Source: Flavobacteriales bacterium
Lineage (GTDB): Bacteria; Bacteroidota; Bacteroidia; Flavobacteriales_F; PHOS-HE28
Direction: 5' to 3'
Length of the DNA stretch: 64,000 bases
Assembly: GCA_023957375.1 (NCBI GenBank)
Contig: JAMLHB010000001.1
Location: 620,001 to 684,000 of the forward strand
Shown here: piece by piece, positions 24,270 through 45,841 of the stretch
How positions within the stretch are numbered: position 1 is the first letter of the stretch
Layout: each line of letters begins with the position of its first letter
Notes under the pieces: model-generated
Seen by the model: the letters and a program-made list of their open reading frames with translations, nothing else
Databases searched by the model: none
What the model was told of the DNA's origin: nothing
Position numbers and translations under genes: made by a program

Positions 24270-24289
24270 GATTTCCACTGCCTGGAGTC

Positions 24290-24660
24290 GCAATGACGGG
24301 TTGGGATAAGAGCGTCGTCACTGCGAGGAGGCTCTGCGACGAAGCACTCCATGCACGGGGTGCCCTGATGGATTGCTTCAGGCCTGTTGAGTGCACAGGC
24401 CTTCGCAATGACGGGTTGGGCAAAACCCCACCACGCCGTCACTGCGAGGAGGCTCTGCGACGAAGCAGTCCATGGCGAGAGTGCCCTGATGGATTGCTTC
24501 CCGGCACAAGGCCGGGACCCGCGACGGCCTCGCAATTACGGGTTGGGATAAGAGCGTCGTCACTGCGAGGAGGCTCTGCGACCCCGGCCTTGCGCCGGGG
24601 AGCAGTCCAAGGCGAGGGAACCCTGATGGATTGCTTGCCGCAGGTCGGTACGAAGCGCCG
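24290..24660. repeat. Tandem array of CACTGCGAGGAGG repeats
   Basis: Three units begin near 24313, 24436 and 24555. Each has gtcactgcgaggaggctctgcga, then a variable part, then ccctgatggattgcttc, and the first two end in gcaat-acgggttggg. Similar TGCGAGGAG...GAAGCA repeats are widespread intergenic elements in bacteria. The array fills the 24270-24698 gap; no gene is supported there. Confidence 0.8.
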
Positions 24661-37318: not shown

Positions 37319-38866
37319 ATGACCAGCATCCAACAGAACGAGGAACTCAAGAAGCGCATCTGGCAGATCGCCAATGATGTGCGCGGCACCGTGGACGGCT
37401 GGGACTTCAAGCAGTACGTGCTGGGGGCGCTTTTCTACCGCTTCATCAGCGAGAACTTCACCCGCTACATCGAAAGCGGCGACGCGAGCGTGAACTATGC
37501 CCGGATGCGCGATGATGCCATCACCGACTACAACAAGGACGACGCCATCAAGACCAAGGGCTACTTCATTTACCCCAGCCAGCTTTTCCAGAACGTTGTT
37601 GCCGGAGCGAAGGACAACGAAAGCCTGAACACCGATCTCAAGGCCATCTTCACCGCCATCGAAGGCTCCGCCCTGGGCTACGCCTCCGAAGAGGACATCA
37701 AGGGGCTCTTCCATGATTTCGATACCACCAGCAACCGCCTGGGAAGCACCGTCAAGGACAAGAACGCCCGCCTGTGCGCCGTGCTGAAGGGGGTGAATGA
37801 TCTCGACTTCGGCCACTTCGAGGACAGTGAGATCGACCTCTTCGGGGATGCCTATGAATTCCTGATCGGCAACTACGCGGCCAACGCCGGCAAATCGGGC
37901 GGCGAGTTCTTCACGCCGCAACACGTCTCCAAGCTGATCGCGCAACTCGCCATCCACGGGCAACAGAGCATCAACAAGGTGTACGACCCGGCCACCGGGT
38001 CTGGCTCCCTGCTGCTACAAGCCAAGAAGCACATGGCCGACCACCTGATCGAGGAAGGTTTCTTCGGGCAGGAGATCAACCACACCACGTACAACTTGGC
38101 GCGGATGAACATGTTCCTGCACAATGTGAACTATGACAAGTTCAACATTCAACTGGGCAACACCCTCACCGATCCCCGTTTCCGCGACGAAAAGCCCTTT
38201 GATGCCATCGTCTCCAATCCGCCGTACTCGGTGAAGTGGATAGGCAGCGACGACCCCACCCTGATCAACGACGAGCGTTTTGCCCCGGCAAGCGTATTGG
38301 CCCCCAAGTCGAAAGCGGATTTCGCCTTTGTGCTGCATGCACTCAACTACCTCTCCGCCAAGGGGCGCGCCGCCCTCGTCTGCTTCCCCGGCATCTTCTA
38401 CCGGGGCGGTGCGGAGCAGAAGATCCGGCAATACTTAGTGGACAACAACTACGTGGAGACCGTGATCTCCTTGGCGCCGAACCTCTTCTACGGCACCACC
38501 ATCGCCGTGAACATCCTCGTGCTCTCCAAGCACAAGTCCGATACCCACGTGCAGTTCATCGATGCCTCGGGGGAGGACTTCTTCAAGAAGGTGACCAACA
38601 ACAACCTGATGACCGATGCACACATCGCGGCCATCGTGCAGCTCTTCGCCGATAAGAAGGATGTGGCGCATGTGGCCAAGAACGTGCGCATGGAGGCCAT
38701 TGCGGAGAACGGCTACAACCTCTCCGTAAGTTCCTATGTGGAGGCGAAGGACACCCGCGAGGTGGTGGACATCAAACAACTGAACCGGGACATCGAAGCC
38801 ACCGTGAGCAGGATCGATGCGCTACGGAAGGACATCAACGCCATTGTGGCGGAAATTGAAAGTTGA
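37319..38866 (+). CDS. hsdM: Type I R-M methyltransferase subunit HsdM (type IC)
   Basis: 515 residues. It methylates adenine in the site read by HsdS. The N-terminal HsdM helical domain (about 5-150) is followed by the N6-adenine methylase domain with SAM motif 'DPATGSGS' (223-230) and catalytic 'NPPY' (300-303). Length and order fit EcoR124I HsdM. The frame is open upstream, but the ATG 37319 gives the family N-terminus. It is the first gene of the locus; the GxxExxY gene follows 11 bp later. Confidence 0.93.
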
Positions 38867-38897
38867 AGAAACCACGAATGGACACGAATGAACACGA
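38867..38897 (+). repeat. CACGAATG hairpin unit at the 5' end of the GxxExxY gene (R4)
   Basis: gaaaccacgaatggacacga continues into atgaacacgaat. The ATG of the next gene lies inside the unit, which thus encodes M-D-T-N-E-H-E. Sequence variants of the same unit occur at 6065, 9290, 14044 and 39287. Confidence 0.75.
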
Positions 38898-39261
38898 ATT
38901 GTTGTTGAAGGAGGAGGTCTACGAAGTGGTGGGTTGTGCCATGGAGGTGCTGAATACGTTGGGTCATGGCCTGTTGGAAAAGCCTTATGAGAATGCCATG
39001 GTCGTGGAGCTTCGGGAGCGGGGCATTCCTTTCCAGCAGCAACCACGGTTCCCGGTCATCTACAAGTCGGTACACGTAGGCGAGTATGTGCCTGACCTGA
39101 TCGCATTCGGGCAGGTGGTCGTGGACGCCAAGGTGATCGAGAAGATCGGGAACAACGAAAAAGCGCAGATCATCAACTACCTCAAGATCACCGGCCTGCG
39201 GGTGGGTGTGCTCCTCAACTTCAAACACGCCAAGCTCGAATGGCAGCGCATCGTGTTGTAG
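38878..39261 (+). CDS. GxxExxY-family protein (PD-(D/E)xK-like)
   Basis: 127 residues. The name motif is G31-x-x-E34-x-x-Y37 in 'GLLEKPY'. The core is PD-(D/E)xK-like: 'GEYVPDLIAF' gives the Asp and 'VVVDAKV' the x-x-K, with Asp in place of the usual Glu. A nuclease role is plausible but not shown for the family. The first seven residues come from the hairpin unit R4; a 30-bp inverted pair follows at 39286-39371. It lies between hsdM and rhuM and looks like a captured unit. Confidence 0.85.
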   Translation: MDTNEHELLLKEEVYEVVGCAMEVLNTLGHGLLEKPYENAMVVELRERGIPFQQQPRFPVIYKSVHVGEYVPDLIAFGQVVVDAKVIEKIGNNEKAQIINYLKITGLRVGVLLNFKHAKLEWQRIVL

Positions 39262-39265
39262 CGAG

Positions 39266-39375
39266 AACCACGAATGGAAGTGAGAAACCACGAATGGACA
39301 CCAATACACACGAATCAAAGCCCATTGATCCCCGGATCATCATTCGTGTGCATTCGTGTCCATTCGTGGTTAAAA
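39266..39375. repeat. Hairpin after the GxxExxY gene, CACGAATG family (R5)
   Basis: Arms at 39286-39315 and 39342-39371 pair at 28 of 30 positions around a 26-base loop; the left arm begins aaccacgaatggacaccaat. A shorter unit accacgaatgg lies just before (39268-39278). The long perfect stem would interrupt or protect the R-M operon transcript. Confidence 0.85.
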
Positions 39376-39394: not shown

Positions 39395-40441
39395 ATGAAG
39401 AAGAAGGCCAAACACGAGGTCTCCATCCGCTCCTCCGCAGCTGAGTACCTCACCTTTGTTGCTGCTGGTGGAGAAGCCGGGATCGAAGCGGTCTATGCGG
39501 ATGAAGATGTGTGGCTCTCCCAGAAAATGATGGGTGAACTCTACAAGGTCGAAACGCACACCATCAACTACCACCTGAAAAAGATCTTCTCCGACAGCGA
39601 ACTGGAGGAAGGGTCAGTTATTCGAAAATTTCGAATAACTGCCAGTGACGGCAAGACCTACAACACCCAGCATTACAACCTGTCCGGGATCATCGCCGTG
39701 GGCTACAAGGTCAACTCCGAACGCGCGGTGCAGTTCCGGAAATGGGCCACGGCCATCATCAAGGAATTCACCATCAAGGGTTACGCCATGGATGATGAAC
39801 GTCTGAAGAACGACGGGTCCATCCTCGGGAAGAAGTACTTTGAAGAACAGCTCCAGCGTATCCGCGAGATCCGCCTCAGTGAGCGCAAGTTCTACCAGAA
39901 GGTCACCGACATCTACGCCACCGCCCTCGACTACGACGTAACTGCCCAGGTCACGAAACGCTTCTTTGCCACCGTGCAGAACAAGCTTCACTGGGCGATC
40001 CATGGCCGGACCGCTGCCGAAGTGATCTACGACCGCGCCGATGCGGACAAGAAGAACATGGGCCTCACCACTTGGAAGGACGCACCCGGCGGAAAGATCC
40101 AGAAGTTCGATGTGAGCGTGGCCAAGAACTACCTGACGGAACTGGAAATGGCCCAGCTTTCGCGGCTCGTGAACGCCTACCTCGACATCGCCGAGGACAT
40201 GGCACAGCGCCAGATGCCCATGACCATGGCGGACTGGGAGCAGCGGCTGAACCGCTTCATCGCCGCCACGGACCGCGATATCCTACAGGATGCGGGCAAG
40301 GTCACCGCCGAGATCGCCAAAGCCCATGCCGAGAGCGAGTTTGAAAAGTACCGCATCGTGCAGGACCGGCTCTATGAATCGGACTTTGATAAACAGATCA
40401 AGGCATTGGATGGCCTTGAGAAAAAAGAAGGGAAGGCATGA
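39395..40441 (+). CDS. rhuM: RhuM-family protein within the R-M locus
   Basis: 348 residues. The N-terminal half is a winged-helix-like RhuM domain ('WLSQKMMGELYKVETHTINYHLKKIF'), then 'YNLSGIIAVGYKVNSERAVQFRKWA'. The C-terminal half has helices and an 'HGRTAAEVIYDRADADKKNMGLTTWK' element. RhuM genes often sit beside type I and other R-M genes; their action is unknown. It has a clear AAGGAG at 39382-39387, unusual in this window, and overlaps hsdS by four bases. Confidence 0.88.
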   Translation: MKKKAKHEVSIRSSAAEYLTFVAAGGEAGIEAVYADEDVWLSQKMMGELYKVETHTINYHLKKIFSDSELEEGSVIRKFRITASDGKTYNTQHYNLSGIIAVGYKVNSERAVQFRKWATAIIKEFTIKGYAMDDERLKNDGSILGKKYFEEQLQRIREIRLSERKFYQKVTDIYATALDYDVTAQVTKRFFATVQNKLHWAIHGRTAAEVIYDRADADKKNMGLTTWKDAPGGKIQKFDVSVAKNYLTELEMAQLSRLVNAYLDIAEDMAQRQMPMTMADWEQRLNRFIAATDRDILQDAGKVTAEIAKAHAESEFEKYRIVQDRLYESDFDKQIKALDGLEKKEGKA

Positions 40442-41703
40442 GCGCGAACGGCTTTTTGGAAAGGCTGCTGGATGGCGCGGCGGTGGAATGGGTGCCTCTT
40501 GGTGAGATCAGCGAGATATATGGTGGCCTTACGGGAAAGTCCAAGGCCGACTTCCAGGATGGCAACGCGAAATACGTCTCGTACAAGAACATCTTTGGCA
40601 ACTTAGAAGTCGACACAGCCATACTTGAGCTGGTCAAAGTATCGGACAACGAACGTCAGCACGAAGTCCAATACGGAGATGTTCTATTCACTGGCTCATC
40701 AGAGATAGCGGACGAGGCCGGTATGTCTTCGGCGGTCACGAGCGTTCTCGACGAACCAGTCTACTTGAACAGCTTTTCATTCGGCTTGAGGTTCAATGAT
40801 GGCGTTCCGTTGAAACCTGAGTTCACGAAGTATCTGTTCCGTAGCCGTTACATGCGGACGGCGATCGCCAGTTCAGCAAGTGGCGTAACACGCTTCAATG
40901 TATCTAAAGCTCGATTCAAGAAGATACCCATCCCCATTCCCTGCCCGGACGACCCCGCTCGCTCGCTGAAGATCCAGGGGGAGATCGTGCGTATCTTGGA
41001 TCGCTTCACCGAGCTTACAGCCGAGCTTACAGCCGAGCTTACAGCCGAGCTTACAGCCAGAGCACAGCAGTACGAACACTACCGGGATGAGCTGCTGAGC
41101 TTTGAGGAGGGGGAAGTGGAGTGGAAGCTTTTGGGCGACATTAGTGAGCTGAGGCGTGGTCGAGTCATTTCAAAGGAGTACTTAACTGAGAACGCTGGGG
41201 AACATCCGGTGTATAGCTCGCAAACAGCCCGCAACGGAGTCATTGGCCGGATCAAGTCTTTCGATTTTGATGGAGAGTATGTGAACTGGACCACTGATGG
41301 AGCAAATGCGGGAACTGTCTTTTATCGTACTGGTCGTTTCTCAATTACAAATGTGAGCGGTATCATACACGTCTTGGATAGGAAGGCCATAAACACCAAA
41401 TACCTATTCCACTGGCTATCAATTGAAGCAAAGAAACATGTGTATTCTGGAATGGGCAACCCGAAGCTTATGAGCTGGCAAGTGGAGAAGATACCTGTTC
41501 CCATCCCCTTTCCCGACAACCCTGAGAAGTCACTTGCCGAGCAAACGCGCATCGTTACCATCCTTGACAAATTCGAAAAGCTGACCCACTCCATCAGCGA
41601 GGGCCTACCCCGAGAGATCGAGTTGCGCCAACAACAGTATGAGCATTACCGGGACCTGTTGTTGAACTTCCCGAAACCGGCCTACCCAACAGCAGAAGCG
41701 TAA
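40438..41703 (+). CDS. hsdS: Type I R-M specificity subunit HsdS with TAEL repeats
   Basis: 421 residues. Two target recognition domains (about 18-170 and 223-385) each begin after a conserved strand ('VEWVPLGEIS', 'VEWKLLGDIS') and each is followed by 'QQYEHYRD'. Four ELTA repeats (residues 192-207) separate them, followed by the QQYEHYRD helix. In EcoR124-type enzymes two or three TAEL units set a 6- or 7-bp gap in the site; four would lengthen it further. Both recognition domains are less GC-rich than hsdM and hsdR, fitting domain exchange. Confidence 0.93.
   Translation: MSANGFLERLLDGAAVEWVPLGEISEIYGGLTGKSKADFQDGNAKYVSYKNIFGNLEVDTAILELVKVSDNERQHEVQYGDVLFTGSSEIADEAGMSSAVTSVLDEPVYLNSFSFGLRFNDGVPLKPEFTKYLFRSRYMRTAIASSASGVTRFNVSKARFKKIPIPIPCPDDPARSLKIQGEIVRILDRFTELTAELTAELTAELTARAQQYEHYRDELLSFEEGEVEWKLLGDISELRRGRVISKEYLTENAGEHPVYSSQTARNGVIGRIKSFDFDGEYVNWTTDGANAGTVFYRTGRFSITNVSGIIHVLDRKAINTKYLFHWLSIEAKKHVYSGMGNPKLMSWQVEKIPVPIPFPDNPEKSLAEQTRIVTILDKFEKLTHSISEGLPREIELRQQQYEHYRDLLLNFPKPAYPTAEA
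41011..41058 (+). repeat. Four perfect 12-bp tandem repeats in hsdS
   Basis: gagcttacagcc repeats four times without a change, in frame, encoding E-L-T-A each time. Perfect identity at synonymous positions means recent expansion. Gain or loss of a unit keeps the frame and changes the gap between the half-sites. Confidence 0.95.
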
Positions 41704-41706
41704 GAG

Positions 41707-42744
41707 ATGGGCACCAATAACTCCAGCATGGCCCAGCGCGAGGGCAACTTGCTCCGGGAACTGCACGCCCTGATCGAACAAGGGCGCAGGCAGGCGGTGG
41801 CGGCCGTGAACAGTGCACTCACGGTTACCTATTGGCATGTGGGGCGGCGCATCAACGAAGAGGTCCTCCATGGACAGCGGGCAGCCTACGGCAAACAGGT
41901 AGTGGTCTCATTGGCTGAAGAATTGGCAGCCACTTACGGTAAGAGTTTTGAGGCCAGGAACTTGCGGCGCATGATGCAGTTCGCCGAATTATTCCCCGAC
42001 CTCGAAATTGTGTCGCCGCTGGTGTCACAATTGAGCTGGACCCACTTCACGGTATTGATCGGGCTGCCCAGCAGCGAAGCACGGGGCTATTACGCCCAGC
42101 GCGCCGCAGCAGGCAAATGGAGTAAACGCGAATTGCAACGCCAGATAGACCGCAAGGCCTTTGAGCGCACCGAGATCGCGGACCATAAGCTGGACCTGGA
42201 CCGCAAACCAGAGTTGGGCGGCAACTTCAAGGATCCCTATTTCCTGGATTTTCTGGGATTGAAGGATGGCTACCTGGAGCATGATCTGGAAAGTGCGCTG
42301 CTGAAGGAGTTGGAGCTTTTCATCCTCGAACTGGGCAAGGGCTTTGCCTTTGTCGAACGCCAAAAAAGAATGATCATCGATGGCGAGGACTTCACACTCG
42401 ACCTCCTTTTCTTCCATAGAACATTGAAACGGTTGGTCGCCGTGGAGTTGAAGATCGACCGCTTCAAGGCAAGTTTCAAAGGGCAAATGGAACTTTACTT
42501 GAGCTGGCTGAACAAGCATGAGCGACAGGAAGGTGAAGAAGCACCCATCGGTCTGATCCTTTGCGCCGAAGCAGGCGCTGAGCAGGTTGAGCTGCTCAAT
42601 ATGCAAAAGGACAATATCATGGTGGCCGAGTATTGGACGAATTTGCCACCCAAGGAATTGCTGGAGGAAAAACTCCATCAGGCACTCATTGAAGTGCGTG
42701 AACGCCTGGCAGAGCGGAAAGCATTGGGAGAAAACCATGACTGA
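41707..42744 (+). CDS. DUF1016 / YhcG-type PD-(D/E)xK nuclease
   Basis: 345 residues. An N-terminal DUF1016 helical domain ('[30 protein letters not shown]', '[20 protein letters not shown]') is followed by a PD-(D/E)xK domain: '[21 protein letters not shown]' supplies D, E and K. Such proteins often travel with type I R-M and RhuM genes. It lies 3 bp after hsdS, and its last eight bases overlap hsdR, so it is part of the operon. Confidence 0.9.
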
Positions 42745-45700
42745 GTACACCGCCATCGCCGAGACCTCGAACTTCATTGTGCTCGACCGCTACGAGCGGG
42801 CCAGCGTGGTCAGTGATCTCTACCAGAGCGAAAGTGCCCTGGAGCTGGAGTTCATCAATGATCTCGACAAGCAGGGCATCGCCTACGTGGCGGACATCCG
42901 CAGCCCCGAAGCCCTCTTGGCGAACGTGCGCGTGCAGCTGCAGGAGCTGAACAACGTGCGCTTCACGGAAGAGGAATGGAAGCGCTTCCAGGAGAAGTAC
43001 CTGGACCCCGCCAGCGAGAGCAGCACGGACAAGGCCCGCAAGGTGCACGAGGACCACATCCACGATTTCGTCTTCGACGACGGGCACATCGCCAACATCT
43101 ACCTGCTGGACAAGAAGAACGTGCTGCGGAACAAGCTGCAGGTGATCAAGCAGTTCGAGCAGACCGGCAGCCACGCCAACCGCTACGATGTCACCATCCT
43201 GGTGAACGGCCTGCCGCTGGTGCAGGTGGAACTGAAGAAGCGCGGCGTGGCCATCCGCGAAGCCTTCAACCAGGTACACCGCTACAGCAAGGAGAGCTTC
43301 AATTCGGAAAGCTCGCTCTACAAGTACGTGCAGCTCTTCGTGATCAGCAACGGCACGGATACGCGCTACTTCGCCAACACCACCAAGCGGGACAAGAACA
43401 GCTTCGACTTCACCATGAACTGGGCGAAGGCGGACAACTCGCTGATCAAGGACCTGAAGGACTTCACGGCCACCTTCTTCCAGAAGAAGACCCTGTTGGA
43501 AGTGCTGCTGAAGTACTCCGTGTTCGACACCAGCGATACGCTGCTGGTGATGCGCCCCTACCAGATCGCGGCCACCGAACGCATCCTGTGGAAGGTGCGG
43601 AGCGCCTACAACGCAAAGGCGTGGAACAGCACCGAAGGCGGTGGCTACATCTGGCACACCACGGGATCGGGTAAGACGCTCACCAGCTTCAAGGCCGCAC
43701 GGCTGGCCACCGAACTGGAATTCGTGGACAAGGTCTTCTTCGTGGTGGACCGCAAGGACCTGGACTACCAGACGATGAAGGAGTACCAACGGTTCTCCCC
43801 CGACAGCGTGAACGGCTCGGAGAACACGGCGGGCCTGAAGCGGAACATCGGGAAGGACGACAACAAGATCATCGTCACCACGATCCAGAAGCTGAACAAC
43901 CTGATGCGCGGGGAGAGCGAGCTGCCCATCTACGGCAAGCAGGTGGTCTTCATCTTCGATGAGTGCCACCGCAGCCAGTTCGGCGAGGCGCAGAAGAACC
44001 TGACCAAGAAATTCAAGCGCTACTACCAATTCGGCTTCACAGGCACGCCCATCTTCCCGCAGAACGCCCTGGGCGCCGACACGACCGCGAGCGTCTTCGG
44101 GCGCGAGCTGCATTCGTACGTGATCACGGATGCCATCCGCGATGAGAAGGTGTTGAAGTTCAAGGTGGACTACAACGATGTGCGGCCGCGCTTCAAGTCC
44201 ATCGAGAGCGAGCAGGACGAGAAGAAGCTCAGTGCCGCTGAGAACAAGAAGGCATTGCTCCACCCGGATCGTATCCGGGAGATCTCGGGCTACATACTGA
44301 AGAATTTCCCCCTGAAGACACATCGCGCCCACATGGGGGCAAAGGGCTTCAACGCCCTGTTCGCGGTGAGCAGCGTGGATGCCGCAAAGGCCTACTATGA
44401 AGCCTTCCGCGAGCTACAGGCGGAGCTGGAGGAGAAGAAGCGGCTGAAGGTGGCCACCATCTTCTCCTTCGCGGCCAACGAGGAACAGGATGCCATCGGC
44501 GACATCGCGGACGAGAGCTTCGAGGTGAGCGCCATGAACAGCAGCGCCAAGGAATTCCTGGGTGCCGCCATCGCCGACTACAACGCCGCGTTCAGGACGA
44601 ACTACAGCGTGGACAGCACGGGCTTCCAGAACTACTACCGCGACCTGGCCCAACGGGTGAAGAAGCAGGAGGTGGACCTGTTGATCGTGGTGGGGATGTT
44701 CCTCACCGGCTTCGATGCCCCCACGCTCAACACGCTCTTCGTGGACAAGAACCTGCGCTACCACGGGTTGTTGCAGGCGTATTCGCGCACCAACCGGATC
44801 TACGATGCCACCAAGACCTTCGGCAACATCGTGACCTTCCGCGATCTGGAGCAGCCCACGATCGACGCGATCACGCTCTTCGGCAACGCCAACACCAAGA
44901 ACGTGGTGTTGGAGAAGAGCTACCGGGAGTACATGGAGGGGTTCACCGACATCGCCACGGGCAAGGCTTGTCGCGGGTACGCGGAGGTGGTGAAGGAACT
45001 GCAGGCCCGCTTCCCCGACCCCAGTGCCATCTTCAAGGAGCAGGACAAGAAGGACTTCGCGAAGTTGTTCGGCGAATACCTGCGGGTGGAGAACATCCTC
45101 CAGAACTACGACGAGTTCACGGGGCTCAAGGCCCTGCAAGGGGTGGACCTGCAAGACCCGCAGGCGGTGGAAGAGTTCAAGGCGAAGCACCACCTGAGCG
45201 ATGCCGACATCGAAGCGATGCGGACCGTCGAGGTGCCCTCGGAGCGCCTGATCCAGGATTACCGATCAACCTACAACGATACCCGCGATTGGCTACGGCG
45301 CCAGCGGGACGGTGCGGAGAAGGAACCCTCCACCCTTGATTGGGATGATGTGGTCTTCGAGGTGGACCTGTTGAGGTCGCAGGAGATCAATTTGGACTAT
45401 ATCCTCGAACTGATCTTCGAGCACAACAAGAAGACCCGCAACAAGAGCGACCTGATCGATGAGGTCCGGCGGGTGATCCGGGCCAGCATCGGGAACCGCG
45501 CCAAGGAGAGCCTGGTCGTGGACTTCATCAACCACACGGACCTGGACGCCATCGGCGACAAGGCCAGCGTGATCGACGCCTTCTTCGCCTTCGCCCAAGA
45601 AGAGCAACGGCGCGAAGCGGAATTGCTGATCACGTCCGAAGGGCTCAATGAAGAAGAAGCAAGACGGTACATCAAGGCTTCCCTGAAGCGGGAATACGCA

Positions 45701-45841
45701 ACAGAGAACGGCACGGCACTCAATGCCACGCTACCCAAAATGAGCCCGCTGAACCCGCAGTACAAGACGAAGAAGCAAACCGTGTTCGAGAAGATCTCGG
45801 CGTTCGTGGAGAAGTTCAAGGGCGTGGGTGGAGAGGTGTGA
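42737..45841 (+). CDS. hsdR: Type I R-M restriction/translocase subunit HsdR (type IC)
   Basis: 1034 residues, close to EcoR124I HsdR. The nuclease domain has D151, E165 and K167 in 'RYDVTIL' and 'VQVELKK'; K220 is also present. The motor has Walker A 'TTGSGKT' with K313 and the 'DECH' box, plus 'GFTGTP' and '[11 protein letters not shown]' in the second RecA domain. These positions equal the numbers I recall for EcoR124I. It cuts unmethylated DNA after ATP-driven translocation. The start (42737) is within the end of the DUF1016 gene. Confidence 0.95.

Follow-up and report, generated by a model that had tools for sequence, protein, structure and literature searches.

A TAEL-type repeat array in a type IC HsdS subunit from Flavobacteriales with the spacer length of EcoR124II

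The specificity subunits of EcoR124I and EcoR124II carry two and three TAEL repeats and recognise sites with N6 and N7 gaps, respectively (PMC3874165), as the first-pass annotation of the DNA described here had correctly stated. The analysed stretch of 64,000 nucleotides from a Flavobacteriales bacterium (the window) harbors an hsdS gene in which a 12-bp unit occurs four times in a row, which raises the question whether its product reads a longer gap than either known enzyme. As set out below, the protein is an ordinary representative of a family already known to switch, and its spacer is no longer than that of EcoR124II.

Repeat array and spacer length

The hsdS gene (40438-41703, forward strand) encodes a type IC specificity subunit of 421 amino acids in which TRD1 is followed by the repeat-containing dimerisation helix D1, by TRD2 and by helix D2. 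The array is located in D1 (41011-41058, forward strand) and consists of four perfect in-frame copies of GAGCTTACAGCC, translated as ELTAELTAELTAELTA, i.e. four ELTA units with three TAEL units within. Both the coordinates and TRF (period 12, 4.5 copies, 97% matches) agree with the perfect run reported earlier. The self-match run at lag 12 is 38 bases long, whereas sequences simulated from a first-order Markov model of the window reach 8 on average and 10 at most. With local codon usage the probability that all four units are identical is about 6 × 10⁻⁵, and two of the four unit codons, CTT and ACA, each make up only about 7% of their own codon family in the operon. Since the lag-12 run exceeds the simulations and codon choice cannot account for the identity, the array is far above chance, and we regard it as real.

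Copy numbers of EcoR124 enzymes are counted in the TAEL register, whereas the DNA units of the window were counted as ELTA. To compare like with like, spacer length was measured as the number of residues between the ILDxF and RxxQY motifs. The D1 spacer of the window, the length-defining element (41008-41058, forward strand), is ILDRF-TELTAELTAELTAELTA-RAQQY, with 17 residues and three TAEL units. In the EcoR124I HsdS of PDB entry 7bst the corresponding segment is ILDKF-TALTAELTAELNM-RKKQY, with 13 residues and two TAEL units, so that the window spacer is longer by four amino acids, or one unit. The molecule name in 7bst is 'EcoR124II' while the entry title refers to EcoR124I-Ocr; with two TAEL units, the protein fits the definition of EcoR124I in PMC3874165. 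For EcoR124II the length of 17 residues was taken from the published definition, EcoR124I plus one unit (PMC3874165), and the spacer of the window therefore matches it. The prediction that four units give a gap longer than in either known enzyme arose from setting ELTA copies against TAEL copies; the spacer has exactly 17 residues. The flanking units explain the difference in count, with ELTA in the window where EcoR124I has ALTA and ELNM, which results in four identical DNA units. EcoR124-type spacers should thus be compared by ILDxF-RxxQY residues and not by copies in an arbitrary register.

According to PMC3874165, EcoDXXI and EcoPrrI likewise possess three units, three TAEL units are apparently the optimum, and this number places the methylated adenines 8 nt apart. 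A plasmid-encoded HsdS annotated as 'EcoprrI' was considered as a calibrator for the N7 class and dropped; its spacer has 13 residues and the label is possibly an automatic annotation. The protein would speak against the residue rule given below if it were genuine EcoPrrI.

Operon and predicted geometry

The genes hsdM (37319-38866) and hsdR (42737-45841), both on the forward strand, encode full-length, close homologs of the EcoR124I subunits. HsdM aligns to 7bst_D with 921.6 bits over 514 amino acids and HsdR, which has an EcoR124_C domain, aligns over its full length to EcoR124I HsdR (2w00) with 1754.7 bits; for HsdM, HsdS and HsdR alike the best PDB sequence alignments are to EcoR124I subunits. 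The tetra-amino-acid tandem repeat of the TAEL type that characterises the family is present in the central conserved region, as three TAEL or four ELTA units at D1, which bears out the earlier assignment of the array to this type. Judged by these alignments, the hsd genes form a complete EcoR124-like type IC operon with three accessory genes interspersed.

These accessory genes, all on the forward strand, are a PDDEXK_3 (GxxExxY-type) gene (38863-39261) between hsdM and rhuM, which the role of the repeat does not require, a RhuM-family gene (39395-40441) directly 5′ of hsdS with a 4-nt overlap, and a YhcG/DUF1016 PDDEXK gene (41707-42744) between hsdS and hsdR. Among 80 type IC loci, RhuM genes were found near hsdS in 14, YhcG genes in 7 and GxxExxY genes in 3. 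The hsdM and hsdS genes of the congener G042 overlap each other directly, so the hsdM-hsdS gene order differs between close relatives.

HsdS has two TRDs and two dimerisation helices, with both chain ends within D2, as recognised from the alignment to EcoR124I HsdS at the ends and the centre and from the helices of an AlphaFold model (mean pLDDT 80, about 81-91 across the D1 helix). Foldseek searches with this model gave type I S subunits among the best matches, including 7bst. In the model D1 is a single continuous helix (residues 173-219) that includes the repeat; the identical 12-bp units thus form a frame-preserving perfect repeat in a predicted length-setting helix. Helix D2 (41521-41661, forward strand; residues 362-408) has a spacer of 17 residues as well, in this case non-repetitive. 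Both helices comprise 47 residues, and the repeat number of the window is therefore predicted to equalise them. The modelled D1 helix of a relative with one unit fewer covers residues 173-215, or 43 residues.

We consider the array to be the known mutable, length-setting element of type IC (EcoR124-like) HsdS, in an EcoR124II-like state and with a predicted N7-class target, at a probability of roughly 0.88. The repeats would be part of the long D1 helix, which is expected to pair with D2 and to keep the two DNA-reading domains apart. One 12-bp unit would lengthen D1 by four residues, close to one turn of the helix, and would shift the half-sites about 1 bp further apart. With three TAEL units in 17 residues the enzyme would then read its bipartite target in the EcoR124II geometry, with methylated adenines 8 nt apart; the nominal N of this N7 class could deviate by one base, as the TRDs are unlike those of EcoR124 and the number depends on the bases that each half-site specifies. 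Slippage or unequal crossing-over may remove or add one unit with the frame kept and the target shifted by 1 bp, as between EcoR124I and EcoR124II, and such switching may also take place in the source organism.

The nearest known system is EcoR124II (EcoR124/3), which belongs to the same type IC operon family and by definition shares the three TAEL units and the 17-residue D1 spacer, so that the N7 class is expected for the window. It differs in its TRDs, and hence the half-sites differ, and the window operon is chromosomal, in a Flavobacteriales-related genome, with RhuM, GxxExxY and YhcG genes inserted. EcoR124I has the same architecture and the same type of repeat at the same place, but with its shorter spacer and N6 gap it is one unit below the window. 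An independent precedent with methylome data is NgoAV of Neisseria gonorrhoeae, in which the number of LEAT repeats in D1 varies by strain and sets the gap, one LEAT giving N6 and two giving N7 (PMC6789123). The NgoAV repeat sequence is unlike that of the window, and NgoAV also has a poly-G frameshift, which was not seen in the window.

Repeat number among relatives and in type IC HsdS

The suggestion that units can be gained or lost in frame is borne out by two pairs of identical or nearly identical relatives. The IncN plasmids pEcI23 and p17511_70 have a single difference in 9.7 kb, which is one 12-bp unit, and each of the two spacer lengths is matched by one further plasmid record. In the marine bacteria Maribrevibacterium harenarium HB171799 (L032) and Neiella marina J221 (L044) the HsdS proteins are alike except for one unit and a handful of residues at the C-terminus, and the HsdM proteins are identical over the part compared. 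Closer to the window, its nearest relative likewise has one unit fewer. The HsdM sister of the window, 92% identical and from an uncultured Flavobacteriales MAG (L015), has a 13-residue spacer with one unit fewer; its TRD2 differs from that of the window, so the pair is not isogenic. The G042 locus (L002) is equal to L015 in length and has the same spacer DNA. In the HsdM tree at least 21 changes between long and short spacers were counted versus 18.8 ± 2.1 for shuffled labels, and spacer state is therefore without phylogenetic signal. Frame-neutral change of copy number in the type IC family is, on these sequence comparisons, well supported. Spacer state changes freely in evolution, and the two natural near-isogenic pairs are suited to direct methylome comparison.

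The D1 survey drew on the 80 loci that matched the query alignment best, thus not on a random sample, and comprised the window and loci of other species; 78 spacers were readable. Spacers of 17 and of 13 residues occur in 38 HsdS proteins each, one protein (from Picosynechococcus) has 9 residues and one has 25, so all 78 lengths differ in multiples of four. The D2 spacer has 17 residues in almost all surveyed homologs. The survey suggests a testable rule, in which 13 residues correspond to the N6 class and 17 residues to the N7 class. The exact four units of the window recur in MAGs of a spirochaete (L020) and of Rhizobacter (L054).

The 25-residue spacer belongs to a Ghiorsea sp. MAG (L016), with six perfect GAGCTGACCGCC units that read as five TAEL or six ELTA. 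This array exceeds those of EcoR124I and EcoR124II, and it is this locus, not the window, that would test a longer gap. A further side observation concerns contig IMGVR_UViG_2837715220_000001 from a viral collection, which carries two hsdS genes on opposite strands (L097 and L098), both with four-unit arrays; the pair is possibly an invertible specificity locus.

At the DNA level 43 of the 57 testable arrays are perfectly homogeneous, as compared to a simulated mean of 0.25 for independent codon draws. Across species the unit codons agree about twice as often as expected from codon usage, and parts of the D1 flanks do likewise; this may reflect common ancestry or recombination at D1. Because the agreement is raised in the flanks too, the comparison does not show that selection at the DNA level acts on the unit alone. 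That homogeneous arrays in type IC systems of many phyla, kept against host codon usage, maintain a gap switchable between 13 and 17 residues over evolution is a doubtful proposition at present; if true, the array of the window would be one case of a maintained target-shifting device and not a passive repeat.

Alternative readings and minor observations

A target of the N8 class, beyond EcoR124I and EcoR124II, would follow from the fourfold occurrence of the DNA unit, but the TAEL register gives three, the spacer is just four residues above that of EcoR124I, its length is common to half of the 78 type IC HsdS proteins, and a truly longer array looks like that of L016, with 25 residues and six ELTA units; we consider an N8 gap highly improbable. 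A fixed structural role is a less remote alternative, in which 17 residues are kept to equalise D1 and D2 and the DNA identity reflects recent tandem duplication. It is consistent with the D2 length in nearly all homologs, with the equal length of both modelled helices and with the apparent optimum of three TAEL units (PMC3874165). Nevertheless, 13 residues are equally common and interchange with 17 throughout the HsdM tree, and homogeneity is so widespread in the family that one recent event is insufficient, which makes a fixed role unlikely.

Active phase variation, i.e. switching so frequent that the population becomes a mixture with at least two methylation patterns, is a stronger claim that is compatible with the EcoR124II-like, length-setting element preferred here. 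It draws on the perfect and frame-neutral repeats, the natural one-unit changes between near-identical relatives, the missing phylogenetic signal of spacer length and the NgoAV strains that read N6 or N7 with one or two LEAT repeats (PMC6789123). All this evidence is between strains or species, however, four 12-bp units are a short array in which the slippage rate may be low, and genus and family searches gave no second allele with the TRD pair of the window, their sole hit being G042, which is a different species and has a different TRD2. Literature searches on phase-variable TAEL arrays yielded nothing specific to Bacteroidota. Phase variation within the source organism is plausible, on evidence of evolutionary lability between strains and species and not of a rate, while frequent switching of the kind described is conceivable though unlikely.

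Two repeats of a different kind were found in the window. Outside the operon, TRF detected a tandem repeat of about 121 bp with 2.5 copies (24288-24582). Within the operon, the PDDEXK_3/GxxExxY gene is enclosed by 30-nt inverted repeats (38870-38899 and 39342-39371) that are 97% complementary and consist of CACGAATG motifs. Paired repeats of this kind are absent at three other copies of the GxxExxY family in the genome. The pair begins just past the hsdM stop codon, and the arrangement resembles a small insertion cassette.
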